This document shows, piece after piece, positions 397 through 14,625 of a stretch of DNA of 64,000 nt. The position numbers and the translations under genes were made by a program. Each line of letters starts with the position of its first letter. Within the stretch, counting starts at the first letter, position 1. The notes under the pieces are model-generated. The model had not been told where the DNA came from. It saw nothing but the letters and a program-made list of their open reading frames with translations, and did no database searches. This stretch comes from Synechococcus sp. AG-673-F03 (GTDB lineage Bacteria; Cyanobacteriota; Cyanobacteriia; PCC-6307; Cyanobiaceae): contig QCTJ01000010.1 in the NCBI GenBank assembly GCA_003211205.1, positions 1-64,000 on the forward strand. The letters run 5' to 3'.

Positions 397-1545
397 ATGC
401 GATTCGCCGTGACCTCCCCGTTCTCCAGCTCCAATTCGATCCTGGAGACCATTGCAGGCCTGTTCCATCCACCGGAACAGATCGATGGGATCAGCCAGCT
501 CGGGTCTGGAAATGTCAACGACACATTTCTGGTGACACTCAATCGCAGCGCATCACGATCAGCCTTCGTCATGCAGCGCCTGAACACTGAGGTGTTCGAA
601 CAACCTGAATTGGTGATGCGCAATCTGCTGAAACTGGGCAGCCACGTTGAGCAGCGTCTTGCACAACAACCGCCAGAACTGTTGGGTCGTCGCTGGGAGG
701 TTCCCAAAGTCCTGCCAACCCTGGATGCCGATGGCCACTGGGTGGAACATCAAGGTGAGTTCTGGAGATCTATCACCCACATCGGTGCAGCCACCACAAC
801 GGATGTCATCCAAGACGACCTTCATGCCCGTGAGCTGGGCTACGGACTGGGGATGTTTCACCACCTGATCAGTGATCTGGCCACTGACGAACTGGCAGAC
901 ACGCTCGAGAATTTCCACATTGCGCCGACTTACCTGGCTGAATTCGACCTGGTGTTCTCCAGATCAAATGATCAGATCAGCCATCGCACCACTCAGGCCG
1001 TCTCCTTCATCGAGGAGCGAAGACAAGGGATCGATGTTCTTGAGCAGGCCTGCGCACGAGGTGAACTGAAACGACGACCGATCCACGGAGATCCCAAGAT
1101 CAATAACGTAATGATCGATAACGCCTCCGGACAGGCCGTGGGTCTGATCGACCTTGACACGGTGAAACCTGGACTGGTTCATTACGACATCGGCGACTGT
1201 CTGCGTTCCTGCTGCAACAGATTGGGCGAGGAGACTCTCGATGCAGGAAAGGTCAGCTTTGATCTCAACCTTTGCCGCGCGATCCTTGAGGGATATCTGT
1301 CGATCGGTCGATCATTCCTCACGCCAGAGGATTTCCGCTACCTACCTGATTGCATTCGCCTGATTCCACTTGAGCTGGGAATCCGATTTCTCACAGATCA
1401 TCTGTCGGGAGACCACTACTTCCGAACATCAAGGCCTCAGCACAATCTCGACCGTGCTGAGGTTCAGTTTGCTCTGACACGATCGATCGAGAATCAATGG
1501 AAAGATCTCAACAACCTGATCGAAGATTTATCGCAAGAACGCTAA
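397..1545 (+). CDS. APH-fold phosphotransferase, N-acetylhexosamine kinase (NahK)-like
   Basis: A kinase of the aminoglycoside phosphotransferase/NahK fold, about 382 residues. The nucleotide-loop motif GSGNVNDTF lies near residue 34. The catalytic loop HGDPKINN (about 230-237) contains the base Asp and metal-binding Asn, and IDLDT (about 251-255) is the metal-binding DFD-like motif. NahK-type enzymes phosphorylate N-acetylhexosamines at C1, but the substrate here cannot be read from sequence. The frame is open back to 271; I prefer the ATG at 397 (or 388) because the longer form would overlap the divergent phosphoesterase start at 288 and adds unalignable residues. It stands alone, followed by a 405-base gap. 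Confidence 0.8.
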   Translation: MRFAVTSPFSSSNSILETIAGLFHPPEQIDGISQLGSGNVNDTFLVTLNRSASRSAFVMQRLNTEVFEQPELVMRNLLKLGSHVEQRLAQQPPELLGRRWEVPKVLPTLDADGHWVEHQGEFWRSITHIGAATTTDVIQDDLHARELGYGLGMFHHLISDLATDELADTLENFHIAPTYLAEFDLVFSRSNDQISHRTTQAVSFIEERRQGIDVLEQACARGELKRRPIHGDPKINNVMIDNASGQAVGLIDLDTVKPGLVHYDIGDCLRSCCNRLGEETLDAGKVSFDLNLCRAILEGYLSIGRSFLTPEDFRYLPDCIRLIPLELGIRFLTDHLSGDHYFRTSRPQHNLDRAEVQFALTRSIENQWKDLNNLIEDLSQER

Positions 1546-1950
1546 GCCTTAGCTACGCAGGCGGAGTGTACCGAAGAGAATGAAACAAACATCTTGACCA
1601 AAGGATATAACGACAAGGAAAAAACCAAAGCTCTTGTAGCTGCTCCTTTGCGACATCCCCCGACAAACAAGATTTGTTCTGCCAAAAAGCAATAAGCTCA
1701 CCACCAATCACCTGCGAATCAGGTCAAGGCAATGGGCTACTGAGGATTCCATCAAGAATCAACATGATGGAAACAGTCAACCCCACTCTCATGTGGCGCA
1801 AAACGCCTGCCTACTGATCAGCCAAAGCCAGCGCCATATTTTTCAGCCATATTGACAACCAAAATACTCAGATCTTCGCTGATCAACAATGCATTGGATC
1901 AGCCTGCAAAAAATCAAGCCCCTCTCAAGAAGTTAGTAGGATCTGGCTTC
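1546..1950. other. Intergenic gap with no recognisable gene
   Basis: About 405 bases between the NahK-like kinase and the next minus-strand gene. I see no tRNA, no convincing terminator hairpin, and no open frame with coding character on either strand. It is richer in A+T than the flanking kinase gene. It probably holds the promoter-free 3' flanks of two converging genes; it could also contain a decayed gene, but nothing supports that directly. Confidence 0.5.
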
Positions 1951-2298
1951 CTACTTTAAAATAGTGATGTTGTATTCCTTGGAGATCAAGATAGAGATCG
2001 TCGCGATTGCTTGCTGAACAATAAGATCAGCATATTGATTGGCCTCTTCATTGAAATCAGGAATCAGAACATCACAGCTCTGAAGGTCTGGGGATACATT
2101 CAGCCTCAGCCGCGCACGATCCTCCTCTGAACAATGATCAAGCACAGTCTCTAGAGCTGCTGAAATCAACCACTCCCTGGCTTGCCTATAACCAGGGGAG
2201 CGACCATTCTTTCCAGTTTCCTTTGACATCTTCTGCTGCTTGTTTGGTGTCAAACCAGGATGACTCAGCTCAGCGTGAAGCGGTGTCGCTGTTGCCAA
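1951..2298 (-). CDS. Hypothetical protein, 115 residues
   Basis: I do not recognise this protein. It has a Lys/Gln-rich N-terminus, a central segment with EWLISAALETVLDHC that looks helical, and an acidic middle (SEEDRARLRLNVSPD), with no signal peptide or membrane segment. Several in-frame starts are possible; the Met at about residue 24 (MSKETGKNG) would give a tidier 92-residue protein. It lies 74 bases downstream of another minus-strand hypothetical and could share its transcript. Function unknown. Confidence 0.6.
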   Translation of the reverse strand: MATATPLHAELSHPGLTPNKQQKMSKETGKNGRSPGYRQAREWLISAALETVLDHCSEEDRARLRLNVSPDLQSCDVLIPDFNEEANQYADLIVQQAIATISILISKEYNITILK

Positions 2299-2372
2299 TC
2301 CCTGCCCTCAGACTGCAAAGAACCTGCACAGCTGTTCCATCTCAGTCCTTGATTGAGTGTTGAGTCTGTCGA

Positions 2373-2996
2373 TCAATCTTGTTGGTTTGGATCTTGTTCA
2401 GCGTTTGGCTCTTGTTCAGAGTCTTCATCCTGAGGGTTGGCCAGTTCCAATTGATGGCGCGTGAGTTCCACGGAACAGGATTCGATCAGATCTGCTGCAA
2501 GGTCTTGCTCTTCCCCTTCAAGCCGAAGGTCCTGAGAAATCGGTGCTTCTGGACAGCTGATAGCAGCAACCTGCTGCAGCGCGTTGGTGATGGCAGACAG
2601 CTCGTTTTGCCAGGTGACGGCCAACCCCTCGATTTCAGCAAGCACTTCAGGACTGGCAGCTTTGATCCCAGAGGCAGCATTCACGCGAGCAGCAATTCGG
2701 CGCTCATCCCAGACCGAGGCACCCACTAAATGGGCTGCATGAAGCGTGGCCAGGGAGCTGATGGCTTCGGCCTTGAGGGTTTTAACCGAACGGCTGATGA
2801 CACGTTGATCCAACGAGAGTGGTTCCACGGAAGGCAGATCAGCAGCATCCGCCGAAGCTGGAATCGTGAGAGGGTCAGCATCCTCCAAGGGTTCCAACAG
2901 CTGTGGCAAGTCTTCGAATTCGTCGGAACTTACAGGTGGGGCGATGCGGCAGGCAGCGCGAATCAACAGATCAGCGAAGTGTTCTCTCAGGCTCAT
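2373..2996 (-). CDS. Hypothetical acidic protein, 207 residues
   Basis: Not recognised. The N-terminal 30 residues look like a short amphipathic helix (LREHFADLLIRAACRI), followed by an acidic, proline-containing stretch, a helical central region (about 70-170) and a C-terminal tail very rich in Glu, Asp, Asn and Gln (QDEDSEQEPNAEQDPNQQD). No transmembrane segment or catalytic motif is visible. The ATG at 2996 is the natural start. Codon use matches the core genes, so it is probably a lineage-conserved protein rather than a recent import. Confidence 0.65.
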   Translation of the reverse strand: MSLREHFADLLIRAACRIAPPVSSDEFEDLPQLLEPLEDADPLTIPASADAADLPSVEPLSLDQRVISRSVKTLKAEAISSLATLHAAHLVGASVWDERRIAARVNAASGIKAASPEVLAEIEGLAVTWQNELSAITNALQQVAAISCPEAPISQDLRLEGEEQDLAADLIESCSVELTRHQLELANPQDEDSEQEPNAEQDPNQQD

Positions 2997-6899: not shown

Positions 6900-7793
6900 A
6901 TGGCTCTGATCCTCCCAGCTAACTATCACAAGATCACCGCCGTTGAACGCAATCGCATTTCCTGGATCAAACCAGAGCAGGCTGAACGTCAGGACATCCG
7001 GCCCTTGAGGATCGGAATTCTGAACATCATGCCCTTGGGGAAACAGTACGAATTCAACCTGCTGCATCCACTGGGACTTTCAGTGCTGCAGATCGAACCA
7101 ATCTGGATTCGTTTGCAGACCCATGCGTACAAGAGCTGGGACCAATCTCACCTTGACGGCCTATACAAAAGCTGGGACGAGGCCAATGCCAAGGGACCTC
7201 TTGATGGATTAATCATCACCGGCGCACCTGTTGAACATCTCGATTTTGAAGAGGTGACCTATTGGAGAGAATTCATAAAACTGGTTGATGAAGCACGCAT
7301 CAGCTGCGCCAGCACTCTTGGTTTGTGTTGGGCCGGATTTGCACTGGCGTATCTGGCTGGGGTTCGCAAAGTGCCACTTCAGCAGAAACTCTTTGGGGTG
7401 TTTCCGATGCGCAGCCTTGTGCCAGGCCATTCGCTGATGGGAACACAAAACGATCAATTTCTATGTCCGCAAAGTCGCTACGCGACGCTTCCAGATACCG
7501 CGATGGAGGCAGCCCAACGACAGGGGCGTCTGCGACTACTGGCACATGGAGAGTCGGTCGGCTACACGATCTTTGAAACACCAGATCAACGACAACTGAT
7601 GCATCTTGGGCATCCCGAATACAACGTCGACAGAATTCTGGCGGAAATGGAACGAGACATAGCCCGGGGCGATGTACCGCCACCACAGAACTTTGATTCC
7701 GACCATCCTCAGACTCTTTGGAGATCACACCGAAATCTTCTCTTTCAGCAATGGCTGTGGTTCTGTTATCAACGCGTGAGTTTTCAAGCGTAA
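6900..7793 (+). CDS. metA: Homoserine O-acyltransferase (MetA family), predicted acetyl-CoA specific
   Basis: A 297-residue MetA-family enzyme with a class I glutamine-amidotransferase-like fold. The catalytic Cys is in GLCWAGFA (Cys143), and the His/Glu pair in GHPEYN (His238, Glu240), each one position later than in E. coli. The usual label is homoserine O-succinyltransferase. However, the residue that decides acyl-CoA specificity in this family (Glu in acetyltransferases, Gly in succinyltransferases, from published work on Bacillus and E. coli enzymes) is Glu112 here, in GAPVEHL. That predicts O-acetylhomoserine as product and fits the upstream metY. The ATG at 6900 is chosen over an upstream open frame that overlaps metY. 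Confidence 0.92.
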   Translation: MALILPANYHKITAVERNRISWIKPEQAERQDIRPLRIGILNIMPLGKQYEFNLLHPLGLSVLQIEPIWIRLQTHAYKSWDQSHLDGLYKSWDEANAKGPLDGLIITGAPVEHLDFEEVTYWREFIKLVDEARISCASTLGLCWAGFALAYLAGVRKVPLQQKLFGVFPMRSLVPGHSLMGTQNDQFLCPQSRYATLPDTAMEAAQRQGRLRLLAHGESVGYTIFETPDQRQLMHLGHPEYNVDRILAEMERDIARGDVPPPQNFDSDHPQTLWRSHRNLLFQQWLWFCYQRVSFQA

Positions 7794-7829: not shown

Positions 7830-8072
7830 ATGCATCCTCTTGAAACATTTAGCCAATGGCGCCGCCGCTGGTTTGGATGGCTGCCGATCAATCAACAATG
7901 GGAGCGATCAGCCGAGGAAGTAGCACCAGAACAACATGATGATTGGTTACTGGATCCCATCAATCAACAAGAAGCATCAGCACTATTTCCACATCTCAGC
8001 AAAGAGAGAGCATTCCTTCAATACCAAAAAATACGGCTCCAGATGCGTGAACAAGAACAACGCGGATACTAA
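7830..8072 (+). CDS. Hypothetical small protein, 80 residues
   Basis: Unrecognised. The N-terminus is rich in Trp and Arg (FSQWRRRWFGWLP), followed by an acidic stretch and a Gln/Glu/Arg-rich C-terminal helix (FLQYQKIRLQMREQEQR). It contains no signal peptide. It starts 36 bases after metA on the same strand, so it could be co-transcribed with the methionine genes, but the base composition drops toward A+T from here on, marking the left edge of the accessory stretch. Coding status is supported by position and composition only. Confidence 0.55.
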   Translation: MHPLETFSQWRRRWFGWLPINQQWERSAEEVAPEQHDDWLLDPINQQEASALFPHLSKERAFLQYQKIRLQMREQEQRGY

Positions 8073-8419
8073 GAAAATTTGAGCCAATACAGCAACATGA
8101 TCAGAATCAATTTCTGGACTTCCTAATAACATTTAGAGAACAAATCAGAGCAAGCCAAACGAAAGCGAATGAATGCCCGCAATCAATTCTTTGCAATCCC
8201 TGAGCAATTAAACAATCAAAGAACATCACAGAATCGAAAGCAGCGCGGGTGTCACAAAGCCAACCTGGATGATGACTTTGATACATCATTGACTTCAAGA
8301 TCAAACACAAGGAAAAATTTGCACAGGCATCAGGCACCGTCTGGATCAGGATCAAGCTTGTTGATCTCCCACACCTTTCCAACTCACATCAACTGGGTTG
8401 AATTCGCCATAATCACACC
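8073..8419. other. Intergenic gap, A+T-rich, no gene seen
   Basis: About 347 bases between two small orphan genes. There are no credible coding frames, tRNA or repeat. Immediately before the next ATG is a CATAAT hexamer (8408-8413) that resembles a -10 box, but it lies only six bases from the ATG and has no matching -35 element, so I do not call a promoter. Confidence 0.5.
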
Positions 8420-8962
8420 ATGAAAAATCTTCTAGTAAAATTCCTCGGCCCCTTGCTGGCGATCGCAGGCGTCCTTGGGCTTACTGGTTCATCGATTCTC
8501 TGGAATTTTCAGGGTCGCACTCTGGGACTCCCTGCAACGATCTTGTCATTGTTAGTGCTTGCTATCGGAATTGTTCTGCTACGTCCCCTGCAACCATCAG
8601 CATCAGCAGAGATCAGTGAAATTGTCGAAGATCAAAGAACAGAAGTCACCACAATTGCCTCTTCGGACGAAATTTCGGAAGTTCAGAGCGGTCAAAATAG
8701 CGAAACAACTGATTTTGGGCAAAATGCAACTGACTCAAACCTAGTTGATACGTCCAACGAGAAAAAGCCATCGTTAACGACAGCCGAAGCGATCGCTGCT
8801 CAACTTGCAGCAGCAGAAGCGGATCAGCCTGAGCGCGTTCTAGTGAACTTTGCTCCGAATGCCTTTCGCCCTGGAAATTCAATTCGGCCTAACAAGAGGA
8901 CTCCAGGAGAAAATTTGTCGGGTTTCCGGGATATGGCTTCTGATTTATTCAAAACTAACTGA
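8420..8962 (+). CDS. Hypothetical membrane protein with two N-terminal transmembrane helices
   Basis: A 180-residue protein of unknown function. Residues about 5-27 and 36-56 are hydrophobic and predicted to form a helical hairpin in the membrane. The remaining 120 residues are hydrophilic, rich in Ser, Glu and Thr, and look disordered (IVEDQRTEVTTIASSDEISE), with a helical segment AEAIAAQLAAAEADQPE and a short, basic, Pro-containing end. Two GCGATCGC octamers fall inside the gene. It stands alone in the accessory stretch, with gaps of over 100 bases on both sides. It could be a membrane-anchored adaptor, but that is guesswork. Confidence 0.65.
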   Translation: MKNLLVKFLGPLLAIAGVLGLTGSSILWNFQGRTLGLPATILSLLVLAIGIVLLRPLQPSASAEISEIVEDQRTEVTTIASSDEISEVQSGQNSETTDFGQNATDSNLVDTSNEKKPSLTTAEAIAAQLAAAEADQPERVLVNFAPNAFRPGNSIRPNKRTPGENLSGFRDMASDLFKTN

Positions 8963-9106
8963 TGAACTCTCAAGGACGATAAAAAATTATTTTTCAGCGT
9001 TCAACATAGGCATCAAAAAGTTTAATTTATTCCTTTATCAGTATTGTTCAAACTCTTTTAGCGAATCAAGTATACTACAAACATATTTAAGTTAATATCA
9101 TAACTT

Positions 9107-9625
9107 CTAGTTTCTGCAGTACTTTCTGATAAAAACAATAGATCGAGAATCACCAAGCCGTTCAGCTTGGGCCCAATCCGAACATGCTCGTTCAAGATCA
9201 TTTGATATTTCCATTGCCATTCCATGATTGAAGTGAGCCGCGCCATCGTTAGGACTCATTTGAATCGCAACATCGAAATCAAGAACGGCACCAGATAGAT
9301 CACCAGATCGTGCCCTCGCAATACCTCGACTGCCATACGTTTCGCTACTTGTTGAGTCAAGCTCTATTGACCTGCTGTAATCAATAATTGAACCCTCAAA
9401 ATCACCATATCTAGCTTTAGCAACACCACGATATTGGTACGCAGCTGCATTCACTGGATCAACCTCAATGGCCCTATTGAATTCAATCAAAGCTCCATGA
9501 AAATCGCCGGATTGTAATTTTTCAGCACCATCCTTGAGATAAGAATCAAAATTGGAAGCCAGTCCTGGAGGGACAAACGTTAAAAGACAAACCATCAACG
9601 AAGCTATAATGGTTCGTAAAGACAT
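9107..9625 (-). CDS. Exported tetratricopeptide repeat (TPR) protein
   Basis: A 172-residue protein with a clear Sec signal peptide (SLRTIIASLMVCLLTFVPPG, cleavage after about residue 23). Consecutive TPR units follow from about residue 28 to 165: each shows the pattern of G-D-F/L plus A or S at fixed positions, e.g. SGDFHGALIEFNRAIEVDP, YGDFEGSIIDYSRSIELD and SGDLSGAVLDFDVAIQMSP. TPR arrays bind other proteins, so this is probably a periplasmic scaffold. It lies in the A+T-rich accessory stretch and has no obvious partner gene. A final pair of Cys (one in ERACSDW, one in RKYC) might form a disulfide. Confidence 0.8.
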   Translation of the reverse strand: MSLRTIIASLMVCLLTFVPPGLASNFDSYLKDGAEKLQSGDFHGALIEFNRAIEVDPVNAAAYQYRGVAKARYGDFEGSIIDYSRSIELDSTSSETYGSRGIARARSGDLSGAVLDFDVAIQMSPNDGAAHFNHGMAMEISNDLERACSDWAQAERLGDSRSIVFIRKYCRN

Positions 9626-9728
9626 TGGCTGAAATGACTAGCTAAAACCAGTTTAGTCAACAGGCTGAGCTCAGCATCTTGATATGAAATCTCAGTGTAT
9701 TAATCTCAAGAATAAGAGTCATTAGCCA

Positions 9729-10163
9729 TCAAGCTTGCGTGATCGGCTCCTGATCAATCAAAACTAACTTCCAATTATTCGGATCATACTCACCATCACC
9801 AAACATAATATTAGAAGCTTCATCCAAGCATGATGCTTCGACTTCCACCGTTTTTTCAATTTTCTGGTTCCAGAAAGAATAGATATGACCTTCCTCGTAA
9901 TAAGCAAACGGCTTTGATGGCATCTGTGAATCTGGGAGCCAATCATCAAGAGCAATAATGTTATTCGTAATCTCTACAATCATTTTCAACGTATCAATAT
10001 CACCGTCTTCGAAGTAGCCTTGCCAATTCATCTCAGCCCATTTCCCATTGTCCTCCATATACAAAACATAAGCCTCATCTTGAACCGTCTCACGCATCAA
10101 GCAAAAATTTTCGCCAGAAAACTCATATTCAGCGGATTGTAGCTTGTTACTGTCAGACATCAT
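9729..10163 (-). CDS. Hypothetical acidic protein, 144 residues
   Basis: Not recognised. It is strongly acidic, with many Glu/Asp and aromatic residues (YVLYMEDNGKWAEMNWQGYF, then AYYEEGHIYSFWNQK), no signal peptide and no membrane span. The composition suggests a soluble single-domain protein. Two ATG codons in tandem (10163 and 10160) can serve as start. It lies 103 bases upstream of the TPR gene on the same strand and might be co-transcribed with it. Base composition is A+T-rich relative to the core genes, consistent with acquisition or rapid divergence. Confidence 0.6.
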   Translation of the reverse strand: MMSDSNKLQSAEYEFSGENFCLMRETVQDEAYVLYMEDNGKWAEMNWQGYFEDGDIDTLKMIVEITNNIIALDDWLPDSQMPSKPFAYYEEGHIYSFWNQKIEKTVEVEASCLDEASNIMFGDGEYDPNNWKLVLIDQEPITQA

Positions 10164-10548
10164 GAGAAATCATCTTGATCTTGTACGAATCAAAAACACG
10201 AATTAACATTCATTTTATAGGAATTCAAAAATCTAGCATCTCAAATGGGCTATTGAGTTTAGAGCACTAGGCGTGACGATGGTATCCAACACATGTCATG
10301 CACGCCTGACAGAACGGATTTGTTAAGGCGGGTGGGAGGGGAGGAGTGCGTGACATGAACAACCAGCTAATAAACGGTTTTCAATTCGACAGATCTCGAA
10401 AGGACTGGATCACGATATGAAACCAAGCTGAATCTTAATACCAGCAGTTCACCAGGCATTCATGGAAAATAGAAACGACATAAGACATGTAAACTTGTAG
10501 AATCAAAATATCATTTTGGGGTTCCAAGACCTCAATTTCCAGGCAACC
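10164..10548. other. Intergenic gap holding an inverted repeat and a G-rich tract
   Basis: About 385 bases between divergent small genes. It contains no coding frame that I trust. Its one striking element is an inverted repeat at 10292-10357 enclosing a G-rich tract (see separate entry). The rest is A+T-rich and could hold the promoters of both flanking genes. Confidence 0.5.
10292..10357. repeat. Long-range inverted repeat enclosing a G-rich tract
   Basis: The arms CATGTCATGCAC (10292-10303) and GTGCGTGACATG (10346-10357) pair over 12 positions with one mismatch that becomes a G-U wobble in RNA. A nested CGCC/GGCG pair (10303-10306 with 10327-10330) lies inside. The right half of the loop is a purine tract GGCGGGTGGGAGGGGAGGAG, with runs of three to four G. 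In RNA this could fold as a branched hairpin, and on the + strand the G-runs could form a two-layer quadruplex. It may be a small structured RNA or a protein-binding site; nothing proves expression. Confidence 0.45.
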
Positions 10549-10785
10549 ATGGCAAATTCAAGATTGAAAGCAGCCTGTTACGTTGTGCACCTAAATGACG
10601 GTAATCTCTTAATTGAAGTCGATTGCTTTGAAACCTATGCAGAAGCATTGCAACAGTTTAACCTAACTATTGAACTAGGGTCATTTGGCCGTTGGAAAGA
10701 AGTGTATTTAGAGGGAAAAGATAGAGCAGGTCAATTCGTTGATATTTATCATGTTCATGATTTTAGCAAGAACAGGTCAGACTGA
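10549..10785 (+). CDS. Hypothetical small protein, 78 residues
   Basis: A short soluble protein of unknown family. Its sequence suggests a small alpha/beta fold: strand AACYVVHLNDGNLLIEVDCF, helix TYAEALQQFNLTI, strand RWKEVYLEGKD, strand QFVDIYHVHDF. The ATG at 10549 is preferred over a TTG at 10516. Codon use and low G+C match the neighbouring orphan genes. It may be a member of one of the small paralogous families common in marine Synechococcus islands, but I cannot name it. Confidence 0.55.
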   Translation: MANSRLKAACYVVHLNDGNLLIEVDCFETYAEALQQFNLTIELGSFGRWKEVYLEGKDRAGQFVDIYHVHDFSKNRSD

Positions 10786-10923
10786 ACCGAACTCCCTCAG
10801 AATCGAATAAGCCTACATGCAAGGTTCTCCAAACACATACCAAGTCATACAGTCAATTTCGTAGACCGATTTGTGCATGATCAACAGTCATCAGTTCAAT
10901 AGCCCGTTAGAGCCAATCATTCA

Positions 10924-11115
10924 GTGTCATTGGTCTATTTTTGGTACGAATGGGGGAAGACAGCTTCAGCCGCAGAACTGATACTGAGATCAACACGAAG
11001 TGGAGCAGTGCTCATCGACTGGCATTGGTACAAAGATCTATCCGATGAGCAGAGGGGTCTCTACGATGAGCTGATTCAGATCGAGACAGAATTTTATTTG
11101 AGTCCAAGAGACTGA
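10924..11115 (+). CDS. Hypothetical very small protein, 63 residues
   Basis: An unrecognised acidic-to-neutral peptide starting at GTG (10924). It begins with LVYFWYEWGK, has a small helix-like ASAAELILRS, then VLIDWHWYKDLSDEQRGLYDEL, which looks like real protein composition (aromatic core plus charged helix). No signal peptide. Coding status is plausible but rests only on composition and on the same-strand gene before it. Confidence 0.4.
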   Translation: MSLVYFWYEWGKTASAAELILRSTRSGAVLIDWHWYKDLSDEQRGLYDELIQIETEFYLSPRD

Positions 11116-11143
11116 AAGCAACTCGTGAAGGGTCTTACACGGA

Positions 11144-11230
11144 TAGGAATCAAGACACCAATGCAACTCAGAGAATGGTTTACCGACTTGGCTGAAGCAG
11201 AATATGATTAGCGGAGCAAGGCGTAGCTTC
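11144..11230 (+). other. Possible 28-codon peptide frame within the gap after the 63-residue gene
   Basis: From a GTG at 11144, or an ATG at about 11180, a short frame reads MQLREWFTDLAEAEYD and ends with TAG near 11210. The last 16 residues look protein-like. It is below any safe length for calling a gene, and there is no ribosome-binding site to decide it. The end coordinate is approximate. The remainder of 11116-11382 shows nothing else. Confidence 0.2.
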
Positions 11231-11382
11231 TCATACATTCAAAGAGATAACCAGCATTTCAATTAATCATTAGTTCTATTATGAGAAATTTAATTAACAA
11301 CCAATGATGTCGTTTGCAAAGGCGTTAGATCTATACGGGCATCGAACAGAAAAAAGCACGATGATTCGCTGTTGATCCTCCA

Positions 11383-11811
11383 TCACAATGACGAGGGATC
11401 AACTTCTTGACAGGTGCCTATTGCATTGATTTCCATAGTAATATTCCTTTGTTGAATCCTCTGCTCATAGGTGTACTCACTTATAGGATCAAGACTTATT
11501 CGGAATGTTACTTCACTTGTACTGAAACCTTGTCCAGACCTGCCTGTACTAGACAGTACACCGTCAATCATCTCAGCATTCAACCATTGCCCGCCCTTGA
11601 ACATCACCATTCTTCTCTGAGGATCAATGATGAATGTCTTGCTTTGCTTACCTTTGTTTTGCTGAATGGTTTCAGAAATATTTGTATTGGCAACTTTTGA
11701 GGTGAGATCGCCTTTGCAATGGAGATAAATCAGCTCTTCAGCAATCGCAGAATTGCCAGAGATCACCAGAGCAGCAAACAGAGTGGGGAGAATCATTTCT
11801 GTCAGAAACAT
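11383..11811 (-). CDS. Hypothetical exported protein, 142 residues
   Basis: A secreted protein with a Sec signal peptide: after MFLTEM or from MILPTLFAALVISGNSAIAE, cleavage is expected after SAIA. The mature part starts EELIYLHCKGDLTSK and contains a second Cys near the C-terminus (GTCQEVDP), suggesting one disulfide. The body looks all-beta (TFIIDPQRRMVMFKGGQWL). Such small exported Cys-pair proteins are frequent in marine Synechococcus accessory regions; no function is known to me. It lies 20 bases downstream of another small exported protein on the same strand. Confidence 0.65.
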   Translation of the reverse strand: MFLTEMILPTLFAALVISGNSAIAEELIYLHCKGDLTSKVANTNISETIQQNKGKQSKTFIIDPQRRMVMFKGGQWLNAEMIDGVLSSTGRSGQGFSTSEVTFRISLDPISEYTYEQRIQQRNITMEINAIGTCQEVDPSSL

Positions 11812-11831
11812 AGATTATTTCAAACTTTTTG

Positions 11832-12143
11832 CTACTTGACACCAAATGAATAATGAGGACATCTTTGATCAACCCCAGGGTAGAATTTGCAATTGATTTG
11901 TTGCTCGCTCATTGAGGCAAGTTGGTCAATCTTTTCTGGGTATTGATCCATAACCAATCCTATAGCCATTCCTTCATTCATACCTCGATCATATGAGTTC
12001 ATAACGCCTACATTTTCTCCTTTCATGATTGAGCAATAAGCATCAACCATTTGATTGATCATAAATTCAGAACTCATTACAGGCGCTCCAATGACACATG
12101 CTGCTGTGACACCTGAGAGAGCAAGTGAGGAGTTGCGCTTCAT
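11832..12143 (-). CDS. Hypothetical exported protein, 103 residues
   Basis: Starts best at the ATG at 12143 (MKRNSSLALSGVTAACVIG), which gives a standard signal peptide ending near APVMSSE; the frame is open back to 12191. The mature segment is short, with Cys in DAYCSIMKG, NCKFYPG and QRCPHY. The odd number of Cys leaves the pairing unclear. It contains a helical middle (NEGMAIGLVMDQYPEKIDQL). Together with the following gene it forms a pair of small exported proteins, probably one transcript. Function unknown. Confidence 0.6.
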   Translation of the reverse strand: MKRNSSLALSGVTAACVIGAPVMSSEFMINQMVDAYCSIMKGENVGVMNSYDRGMNEGMAIGLVMDQYPEKIDQLASMSEQQINCKFYPGVDQRCPHYSFGVK

Positions 12144-12452
12144 GAGTGATTGACTTTTACCATTAATAGCACTACCTGAAAAACCTGCCATCGTTTGCCA
12201 TAAGCATAAGGCTTGAAGACTCCAATTCCTGAGCTGCTAAAAAATAGCCTTAGAGAATTTTATCTCCTTCATACTCTGTTGGCCTGAGAATGCTTGATTA
12301 GCAGACAAAACGCGGAAGAATCTGATCGCAACTTAAACCGAACGGAAAGCGTAAACCGATCAACTCCTTACTTTGATTCAGGTGGCTTCTTAGGGGACAT
12401 CAATCAACTGATCAACACGACATGAAATCAGCAGAACCTTTTTGATTGGTGC
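12144..12452. other. Intergenic gap at the right edge of the accessory stretch
   Basis: About 309 bases between the small exported protein and the end of ccsA. I see no gene or strong hairpin. A T-run near 12437 on the + strand has no stem next to it, so no terminator for either neighbour is called. Confidence 0.5.
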
Positions 12453-13421
12453 TTACTCAAAAAACCAACCATAGCTGTGCAATCCGATGCCAAGAAGATT
12501 GACTCCGATATAACACACAACAATCACCACCAAACCGGAAGCGGCGACAAGCGCCGGACGCCGACCTTGCCAGCCACGGCTCAGACGTGTGTGGAGATAG
12601 GCGGCGTAGACCAGCCAGCAAATCAACGCCCAAGTTTCTTTGGGATCCCAACTCCACCAACTTCCCCAGGCCTCATTCGCCCAAACGGCCCCACTAATGA
12701 TGCCGACGGTGAGCAACAGAAATCCCACGGTGATCGTGCGATAGCTCAAACTGTCGAGCTGCTCGGTGCGACTGAAGTGAATGGATGAAAGCTGAACTTC
12801 CGGCGGGTTCCATACCGCAACACCACCTTCTACGGAGGGAACTTTCGGTCGTCGATAAGCACCTGTTCCGATGGAGCTACTCCGCAGTTCCAGCTCTTCA
12901 CCACGGTCCGTCAGCAGCACGGCAACCGACAGCAGTGACCCCACCATCAGAGCCGCATAGCTGACCATGATCACACTCACATGCATCACCAACCAGCTAC
13001 TCCGCAGGGCCGGCACGAGTGGTGATGCTTGCTGCAGCTGGTCGGGCAGCGCAAAGCTGGCAAAGGCAATGCAGCCAAGACCCATCGGTGTGGCGGCAGC
13101 TGCCACCAGAGGCGACGACCAGTTGCGTTCAACCAGAAGCTGGGTGAGTGTGCAGGCCCAGGCCAGAAAACAGAGCGATTCGTAGAGGTTACTGATCGGG
13201 AAGTGTCCGGATTGCCACCAGCGCAGCACAAGCTGAGAGGTGAGCAAGAAGTTGGAAAGGGCGATCAGTGAGCGCACACCGCTGGAGCTCCGACCCTTGG
13301 AGAGTGCCCAAAAACTCCAGGGCAACGCAATCAACAAAAAGCCAAAGGCCATCAGACCCAGAAGCAGAACAGGTTCCGAAACGATCGCTTCCAGACCGGA
13401 AAACCCCATCAACCACCTCAA
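12453..13421 (-). CDS. ccsA: Cytochrome c biogenesis protein CcsA (system II heme handling)
   Basis: A 322-residue polytopic membrane protein of the System II cytochrome c maturation pathway. With CcsB (not seen here) it carries heme across the thylakoid or plasma membrane and attaches it to apocytochromes. The diagnostic WWD motif [11 protein letters not shown] is at about 252-262, and the heme-ligand His candidates are in VMHVSV (about 147), AYLHTRL and GLHSYGW near the end. Six to eight hydrophobic helices are visible. Some databases name this subunit CcsB by the bacterial convention. It lies 37 bases after lptF on the same strand. Confidence 0.93.
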
Positions 13422-13458: not shown

Positions 13459-14625
13459 TCATCGACTGGCCTGCCTTAGTAAGAATCCGCCACCAGCTAG
13501 GGAGATCAACACAGGACTCCAAGCCGCAAGCAGCGGCGGAAGCGTGCCTTTGACACCAAGGGAACTGAAACTGAAACTCAGCACGTAGTAAACCAAGATC
13601 AGCACGACGCTGATGCCGAAACCCTGGCTGCGACTGGTTCGGCTGTTGGGTTTAGCACCAAGACTCGCACCAATCAAACCAAAGACAAGACATGCCATCG
13701 GCAGAGTGAATTTCTCCTGAATCCTGACCTGAAGTCGACGAGCCTCTTTAGTATCACCAGCATTCAGAAGAAGTTGTTCGGCCTGCAGCGCTTCAGCCAC
13801 CGTCATGTTGTTGGCATCCTTAGGAAGCTTGGCAATACGAATTGGAGCAGCACTAAGCGGATAGAGGTACCTGACAAAATCTGCCGAAGTGGTGCTGCCA
13901 GAGGGGGTGAGAGTCAGGATCTGCCCGTTTAAAAACTCCCATTTGGCTTCTCTCTCGTTCCAATTAGCGCTTTCGGCTACCAACATTTGTGTGAACCCCC
14001 TCCGGGAAAAATCGAGCACTGTTACGCCTGTCATGGTGCCGTCACGAAATTTGCTGGCATAGAACAGCTGAACCAACCCCTTCCCGGTGGAACCGTCAGG
14101 TTGCTGGATAGATCCGAACCGTGAATAAACAATGTTGTCGCCTTTCTCAGTGGCGATCGACTTCCCGAGTGCTCTGCGCAAAGTGATCTCAGCAGAACGA
14201 TTGCTTCGGGGCACCACTACGTCATTGAAAACAAATGTCAGACTCGACATAACAAGAGCCAAAGCAAGCGCTGGCAGGATCATTCGGGTGGCCGTGACGC
14301 CCACGCTGCGTAGAGCAGTGAGTTCGCTGTTTGCAGATAAACGGCTATAGGCAAGAAGGGTGGCCATCAGGGTGGCCATCGGGAAGGAAATCACCAGAAA
14401 ACTGGGCAGACGCTGCAACAGCACCTGGACAGCAATCAGAACGGGAAGACCAGATTCAACGATTTTTCTCACAAGTTCAAACATCACCCCAACCGACAGC
14501 GACACAACCGTGAAGGCGGCGACTGCAAACAACAGTGGGCTGATCAGCTCGACGATGAGCCAACGATCGAGAAGCGGAATGCGCCGAAGAAGAGTGCGGA
14601 CCCTCTGATTAATTGATTGCATCAC
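13459..14625 (-). CDS. LptF/LptG-family lipopolysaccharide export permease
   Basis: A 388-residue inner-membrane permease of the YjgP/YjgQ family. Three N-terminal transmembrane helices (about 20-120), a periplasmic beta-jellyroll-like domain (about 130-270, e.g. [20 protein letters not shown]) and three C-terminal helices match the family. With LptB it extracts lipopolysaccharide from the inner membrane. Only one permease gene is present, which I recall as usual in cyanobacteria. Its start overlaps the lptB stop by four bases, so it is coupled in an lptA-lptB-lptF operon. Confidence 0.88.

Follow-up and report, generated by a model that had tools for sequence, protein, structure and literature searches.

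Tycheposons of Prochlorococcus are integrated variable regions whose hallmarks are a tRNA target and a tyrosine recombinase. Genomic islands of marine Synechococcus are defined, in the available part of the source, by at least six genes and a tetranucleotide first principal component more than 1 standard deviation from the genome average, with mobility genes or tRNA and/or core-gene blocks as an aid to placing borders (PMC2441476). The same part states that 60–78% of island genes have no assigned function and that the mechanism of preferential island insertion was still to be elucidated (Dufresne 2008, PMC2441476). Another study reports, in its excerpted text, that lineage specificity in these organisms is greater for exported than for cytosolic proteins (PMC4949707). 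Here we analyse the interval between the convergent genes metA and ccsA in Synechococcus sp. AG-673-F03 (contig QCTJ01000010.1, positions 1 to 64,000; "the window"), which opens one of the 82 contigs of a 2.0-Mb genome that is 81% complete (G000). The interval is rather probably a lineage-specific islet on a synteny junction, fed by integrase-free recombination and holding a store of envelope and secreted proteins.

The interval shares with tycheposons that it is a variable region; the hallmark tyrosine recombinase (sought with Pfam, NCBIfam and a motif scan) and border tRNA (sought in the 64 kb) were not found. Variable regions of this general kind are known, and the interval is a small one. 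It holds eight genes and is bordered by housekeeping genes (of 151 family genomes, 134 had a match to ccsA and 70 to metA). As in the marine Synechococcus islands described in the available parts of PMC2441476 and PMC7522525, most genes are unassigned, content is lineage-specific and core genes form the borders; tetranucleotide composition is an outlier within the 64-kb window and may be one in the genome; unlike those islands as described there, the interval is very small (8 genes, 4.7 kb), has an older, ordered core, and lies on a rearrangement junction whose borders carry no mobility gene or tRNA. There is also a likeness to scattered prochlorosin precursor loci, as set out in the excerpted PMC10783134: Nif11-leader precursors occur in the interval of one relative (G173) and beside some off-site copies of the H family described below, whereas the window's own interval gave no significant match to a precursor with a Nif11 leader and Gly-Gly motif. 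No link to the H family, to TPR proteins or to a dispersed repeat (E1) is among the features described for prochlorosin loci in that excerpt, and searches of open-licence literature brought up no title or abstract opening on the metA-ccsA site or on an H/TPR/prochlorosin association.

The metA-ccsA junction and its interval

Two comparison sets were used, 31 genomes of the genus and 151 of the family (6 of them from the genus), and the junction was located by DNA search of the former. metA and ccsA are convergent, less than 11 kb apart and on one contig in nine of the 31 (G000, G158, G161, G170, G157, G173, G175, G169 and G141). They lie 79.6–283 kb apart on one contig in 14 others, so the gap probably arose by rearrangement and not by simple insertion between old neighbours. 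An earlier sequence-only reading of this DNA had proposed an insertion point for lineage-specific genes; the lineage-specific content stands, and insertion between neighbours does not. The two genes were on separate contigs, or one was not found, in G159, G162, G163, G167, G171, G172 and G174. G164 carries the metA-side block on one contig and ccsA on another, which continues to a DnaK-like open reading frame (ORF; named by eye); were the contigs neighbours, the interval would exceed 15 kb. It was rejected as a tenth junction genome: gene-family matches apart, its two contigs have no more than a near-identical piece of 43 bp in common. In gene trees of 15 genomes (metA, metY, ccsA, lptF, lptB), the nine plus G164 form one clade for metA, lptF and lptB (the last without G161), while the ccsA and metY trees place G141 and G169 elsewhere (support 0.88 and 0.49).

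The interval is the sole long stretch of low guanine+cytosine (G+C) content in the 64 kb: G+C falls from ~0.56 to 0.39–0.44 and recovers at ccsA, giving 0.416 for the interval versus 0.566 for the window. It is also the window's strongest tetranucleotide outlier (|z| 3.46, with the 64-kb window and not the whole genome as reference). The nine intervals have G+C of 0.41–0.47 inside versus 0.54–0.58 outside. Low-G+C islets are common in these genomes, given that in the two relatives sampled (G170 and G157, 400 1-kb windows each) 9.5% and 9.25% of windows fall below 0.45. A shorter second dip lies at window positions 1501-2500 (0.466 over 1 kb). The features of the locus are as follows.

6900..7793, + strand: metA, left flank; 97–99% DNA identity to G158
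7830..8072, + strand: A80, small protein; first after metA in the nine junction genomes and G164
8169..8423, + strand: B84, open frame, not a gene
8420..8962, + strand: C180, putative membrane-hairpin protein with a conserved C-terminal motif (alignment)
9107..9625, − strand: D, TPR protein (Pfam) with a signal-like N-terminus
9729..10163, − strand: E144, very acidic protein, net charge −22
10549..10785, + strand: F89, small protein, 78 residues from ATG
11008..11115, + strand: gene G, GTG start at 11008, cut by TGA (alignment with four relatives)
11383..11811, − strand: H142, member of a multi-copy family with a signal, convergent with gene G (profile, alignment)
11832..12191, − strand: I119, small protein with a signal-like N-terminus; at the site only in G000, G158 and G161
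12453..13421, − strand: ccsA, right flank, convergent with metA
13459..14625, − strand: lptF-like gene, replaced allele in the G000/G158 lineage; 73% DNA identity to G161

Much of the sequence-only description was borne out. It had placed eight small genes between metA (+) and ccsA (−), and they occupy 7830-12191; the long A+T-rich gaps that it noted measure 36, 347, 144, 103, 385, 222, 267, 20 and 261 bp from metA to ccsA, in an interval of the low G+C given above. Its statement that recognised enzymes are missing agrees with Pfam, which above cut-offs named the TPR protein alone among nine ORFs, and with NCBIfam, which above cut-off matched none of them. It had seen no integrase or tRNA; likewise, Pfam and NCBIfam recognised no integrase among the nine ORFs, no tRNA was found in the whole 64 kb, and a scan of the window and 41 loci for transposase and tyrosine-recombinase motifs (a weak test) gave one match, in a stop-filled frame. 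The TPR protein that it named is D, its membrane hairpin protein corresponds to C180, with two predicted hydrophobic segments, and its three exported products correspond to D, H and I, which have signal-like N-termini; segments and N-termini were called by eye and hydropathy, without a signal-peptide predictor. No Rfam RNA at gathering score was found. Repeats within the interval were limited to short two-copy ones, and promoter-like sites (9 versus 10.3 in shuffles) and terminator-like sites (2 versus 4.1) were no more frequent than in shuffled sequence.

Selection, turnover and recombination at the site

Sequence comparisons indicate purifying selection on all eight genes. The ratio of nonsynonymous to synonymous rates (dN/dS), taken against G158, G161, G170, G157, G173, G164 and G175 where the gene is present, was 0.06–0.26 in most comparisons. 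Values were higher against G158 for D (0.41), H (0.54) and I (0.61), with synonymous differences of only 9, 8 and 5, and for H against a 25% identical relative in G157 (0.46); H had three comparisons and I two. Synonymous saturation made the ratio non-computable for C180 and D in G175 and for F89 in G170, the fifth F89 comparison beside four at 0.11–0.19. E144 (dN/dS 0.06–0.15) is the best conserved of the interval proteins without known relatives; it was found in G000 alone among the 151 family genomes and, by DNA, in 7 of the 31 genus genomes. B84 was rejected as a gene: its dN/dS is 0.49–1.20, and of the four relatives that align, three have a stop within the alignment. The TGA of gene G (11113-11115, codon 36) stands where all four aligned relatives have a Cys codon, and the frame beyond it stays open to 11208; the gene has 73 codons in G173, and 67 in the three other relatives with a copy at the site. 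The TGA may be a true nonsense mutation or a sequencing error.

Conservation at the site was counted in ten genomes, the nine with a one-contig junction plus G164 (metA-side genes only). From metA to ccsA, A80 is present in 10, C180 in 8, the TPR gene in 8, E144 in 7, F89 in 6, G in 5 (including the TGA-cut copy; G164 holds a further remnant), H142 in 3 and I119 in 3, and the order A80-C180-TPR-E144 is conserved in seven. The sequence-only reading would have been refuted by an identical set and order of the eight genes in all close relatives; this was seen in the two closest, G158 and G161, and not in the other six junction genomes. Interval length is uneven, at 2169 bp in G169, 3261 in G170, 3620 in G175, 4659 in G000, 4666 in G158, 4925 in G161, 6514 in G157, 6954 in G141 and 10582 in G173. 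A80 has a broken frame in G164, and also follows metA in G160 and G154, where ccsA lies elsewhere.

Extra genes differ among G173, G157, G175 and G141. Added in the G173 interval are a 515-residue ORF and seven that resemble precursors, of which six end in Gly-Gly; these precursors, Nif11-leader-like and of prochlorosin type, lie at L043:7806-8102 and L043:10914-13526, and the one tested was confirmed as a Nif11 match. The G157 site has other H-family copies, one of them decayed and adjoining gene G; G141 has two additional H-type ORFs; and in G164 H-type ORFs stand in tandem next to ccsA, with an AbrB-like regulator on the metA side. A 78-residue ORF lies directly downstream of ccsA in G173 (L043:13940-14176) and G157 (L042:3840-4073), and is cut short in G164; considered as an integrase N-terminus, it gave no significant Pfam match and that identity was rejected.

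The flanks are mosaic. G161 clusters with G000 and G158 in the metA, metY and ccsA trees, but its lptF groups with that of G157 (92% DNA identity, versus 73% to G000), so that lptF of the G000/G158 lineage is an allelic replacement relative to the sister genome G161. Between G000 and G158, synonymous changes number 50/233 in ccsA versus 10/203 in metA (P 3e-7; dS 0.256 and 0.051), and identity is 90–91% over 8.0–9.5 kb versus 96–99% over 2.5–8.0 kb. The tree conflict and the uneven divergence are what homologous exchange near the site would leave, without showing that genes were delivered by that route. In G157, the decayed H and gene G at the site match an H-G pair elsewhere, ~290 kb away, at 83% identity over 750 bp.

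The gene families elsewhere and their company

The sequence-only reading had called all eight genes orphans, a label that fails for three of the families. Relatives of C180 occur in every one of the 31 genus genomes; TPR-D has relatives elsewhere, multi-copy in several genomes among the matches listed; and an H-family profile has matches in 18 of 31 (19 in G164 alone, fragments included), where the single H142 protein query had matches in 2 of 151 family genomes. The gene G family gave 13 matches in 6 of 31 genomes, and I119 has relatives of 40–47% identity in two genomes of another genus. Hairpin-type C180 copies elsewhere in genomes lacking the site copy suggest relocation. The H family was defined by alignment as combining a profile match, a signal-like N-terminus, a Cys near the N-terminus and a Cys near the C-terminus. 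H142 has all four features, the profile match by construction, since H142 is in the profile; aligned members are 17–24% identical to it, two orthologues excepted.

Off-site H-centred loci, taken as the 20 best-scoring off-site places of the H-profile search, often contain other families of the interval. By ORF clustering, TPR genes occur in 6/20 (in L157, ~14 kb from H) and gene G in 2/20; the convergent G-H pair is also found off-site in G157 and G173. Prochlorosin-type ORFs occur in 9/20, or in 6/20 after dropping L159, L162 and L163, whose precursor ORFs lack a Gly-Gly end and lie 4–6 kb away (L164, with an imperfect motif, was kept). E1, a dispersed repeat of ~110 bp, is present in 9/20; further copies lie within the interval of G173 and on the metA side in G164, and the window has none. 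The repeat was seen at L148:12733-12843, with copies in L146, L147, L149, L152, L154, L158, L161, L164, L039 and L043.

Co-localisation of TPR and H was tested in G170 and G169 only, where both families are multi-copy off-site; G157 and G158 (off-site H and no off-site TPR at an expectation value, E, ≤1e-15) and G141 (no off-site H) were left out. With TPR matches of E 1e-15 or better, plus one weaker G169 match inside an existing cluster, 4 of 7 clusters lay within 5 kb of an off-site H, versus 0.18 expected (P 5e-5). Even 400-kb samples of G170 and G157 served as background. In G170, 64.5 kb of H-centred DNA held 7 E1 copies versus 1 in 400 kb, 6 TPR genes versus 1 (the metA-ccsA site itself), and 7 precursors versus 0; the E1 query was drawn from a G170 H-centred locus, which places one G170 copy there by construction. 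G157 had 3 E1 copies in 29 kb of H-centred DNA versus 3 in 400 kb, and H itself was found in neither 400-kb sample. The company of H with TPR genes, precursors and E1 is thus strong in G170 and is limited to E1 in G157. With H, TPR, gene G, precursors and the 110-bp repeat often together in relatives, the site would be one islet among several that draw on a common gene pool. In some relatives, prochlorosin-type precursors and small proteins of exported type share islets.

Origin of the interval

A history of the following kind would account for these data. In an ancestor shared by at least nine of the 31 genomes, rearrangement would have brought metA, together with A80, and ccsA next to each other at their 3′ ends, and the convergent gap would then have gathered small A+T-rich genes. 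The A80-C180-TPR-E144 block, with F89 and the convergent G-H pair, would have been established early in a clade of seven or eight genomes, while the ccsA-proximal half turned over, leaving I119 here, a precursor array in G173 and tandem H-type proteins in G141 and in G164 (beside ccsA). Exchange most likely proceeded by homologous recombination via the conserved flanks and, further, by ectopic exchange with islets that have the same families and, in several relatives, share the 110-bp repeat, with no site-specific integrase; we infer that homologous and repeat-assisted recombination without an integrase is the best mechanism. Because D, H and I look exported and C180 membrane-bound, the islet most likely serves as a store of envelope and secreted proteins that varies what competitors, grazers or phages meet.

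Several observations weigh against this account. The window's interval contains neither E1 nor a prochlorosin-type precursor, and no second copy of its DNA was found elsewhere in its own 81%-complete genome, so the evidence for shuffling comes from relatives. Among these, G157 has no precursors in 29 kb of H-centred DNA versus 8 in 400 kb and no TPR gene in either, and the TPR is a common fold. A single clade of junction genomes is unsupported by two of the five gene trees, and the replaced lptF segment ends before reaching the interval. A strict old-to-new polarity from metA to ccsA was rejected, being contradicted by the ccsA-adjacent ORF in three genomes; the graded counts are also not independent of phylogeny. 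Structure models of E144 and H142 (mean predicted local distance difference test scores, pLDDT, of 52.5 and 38.5) were too low in quality for fold searches.

A tentative and less likely reading supposes a wider network in marine Synechococcus of this clade: an integrase-free set of islets, seeded in several genomes by the dispersed 110-bp repeat, in which shared cassettes (exported H, exported TPR, the G-H pair and precursors) are copied and swapped, the metA-ccsA gap being one docking site, and H and TPR perhaps acting with secreted lanthipeptides. Low G+C, small uncharacterised genes and variable content would suit a mobile element (phage, satellite or tycheposon-like island) now degraded, whose integrase has been lost. 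We consider such a remnant unlikely: neither a tRNA nor a recognised integrase or transposase lies in the window's interval, the motif scan (a weak test) of the window and 41 loci found none either, and the oldest genes keep their order under selection. A phage origin in particular was rejected, with no relatives of E144 and I119 (the two searched) in viral contigs, none of E144, H142 and I119 (the three searched) in phage records, and, for the seven proteins compared with PHROG (all but the TPR protein), no match below E 0.03.

About as improbable is a stable, vertically inherited, fast-evolving block of joint function whose variability is mainly loss. The A80-C180-TPR-E144 order common to seven genomes and the purifying selection speak for such a block, but its genes are spread over both strands and set far apart, C180 and TPR family members are sited elsewhere in other clades, and the extra genes of G173, G157, G175 and G141 differ. 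That the interval is a non-functional spacer at a convergent junction, gathering mostly decaying DNA, is very unlikely; the truncated gene G here, the broken H copy in G157 and the broken A80 in G164 would agree with it, whereas A80, C180, TPR, E144 and F89 are under clear purifying selection in several comparisons each.

The interval has practical merits: its flanks are defined, nine genomes can be compared, an old core stands beside a young half, and its families recur in other islets, in some genomes next to a shared repeat. These traits make preferred-site gene gain in marine Synechococcus islands testable in population genomes. The other side of ccsA appears to be variable too, with ccsA-lptF gaps of ~7 kb in G152 (G152:C1:1198664-1205491) and G168 (G168:C1:1301293-1308300), where ccsA is not beside metA.

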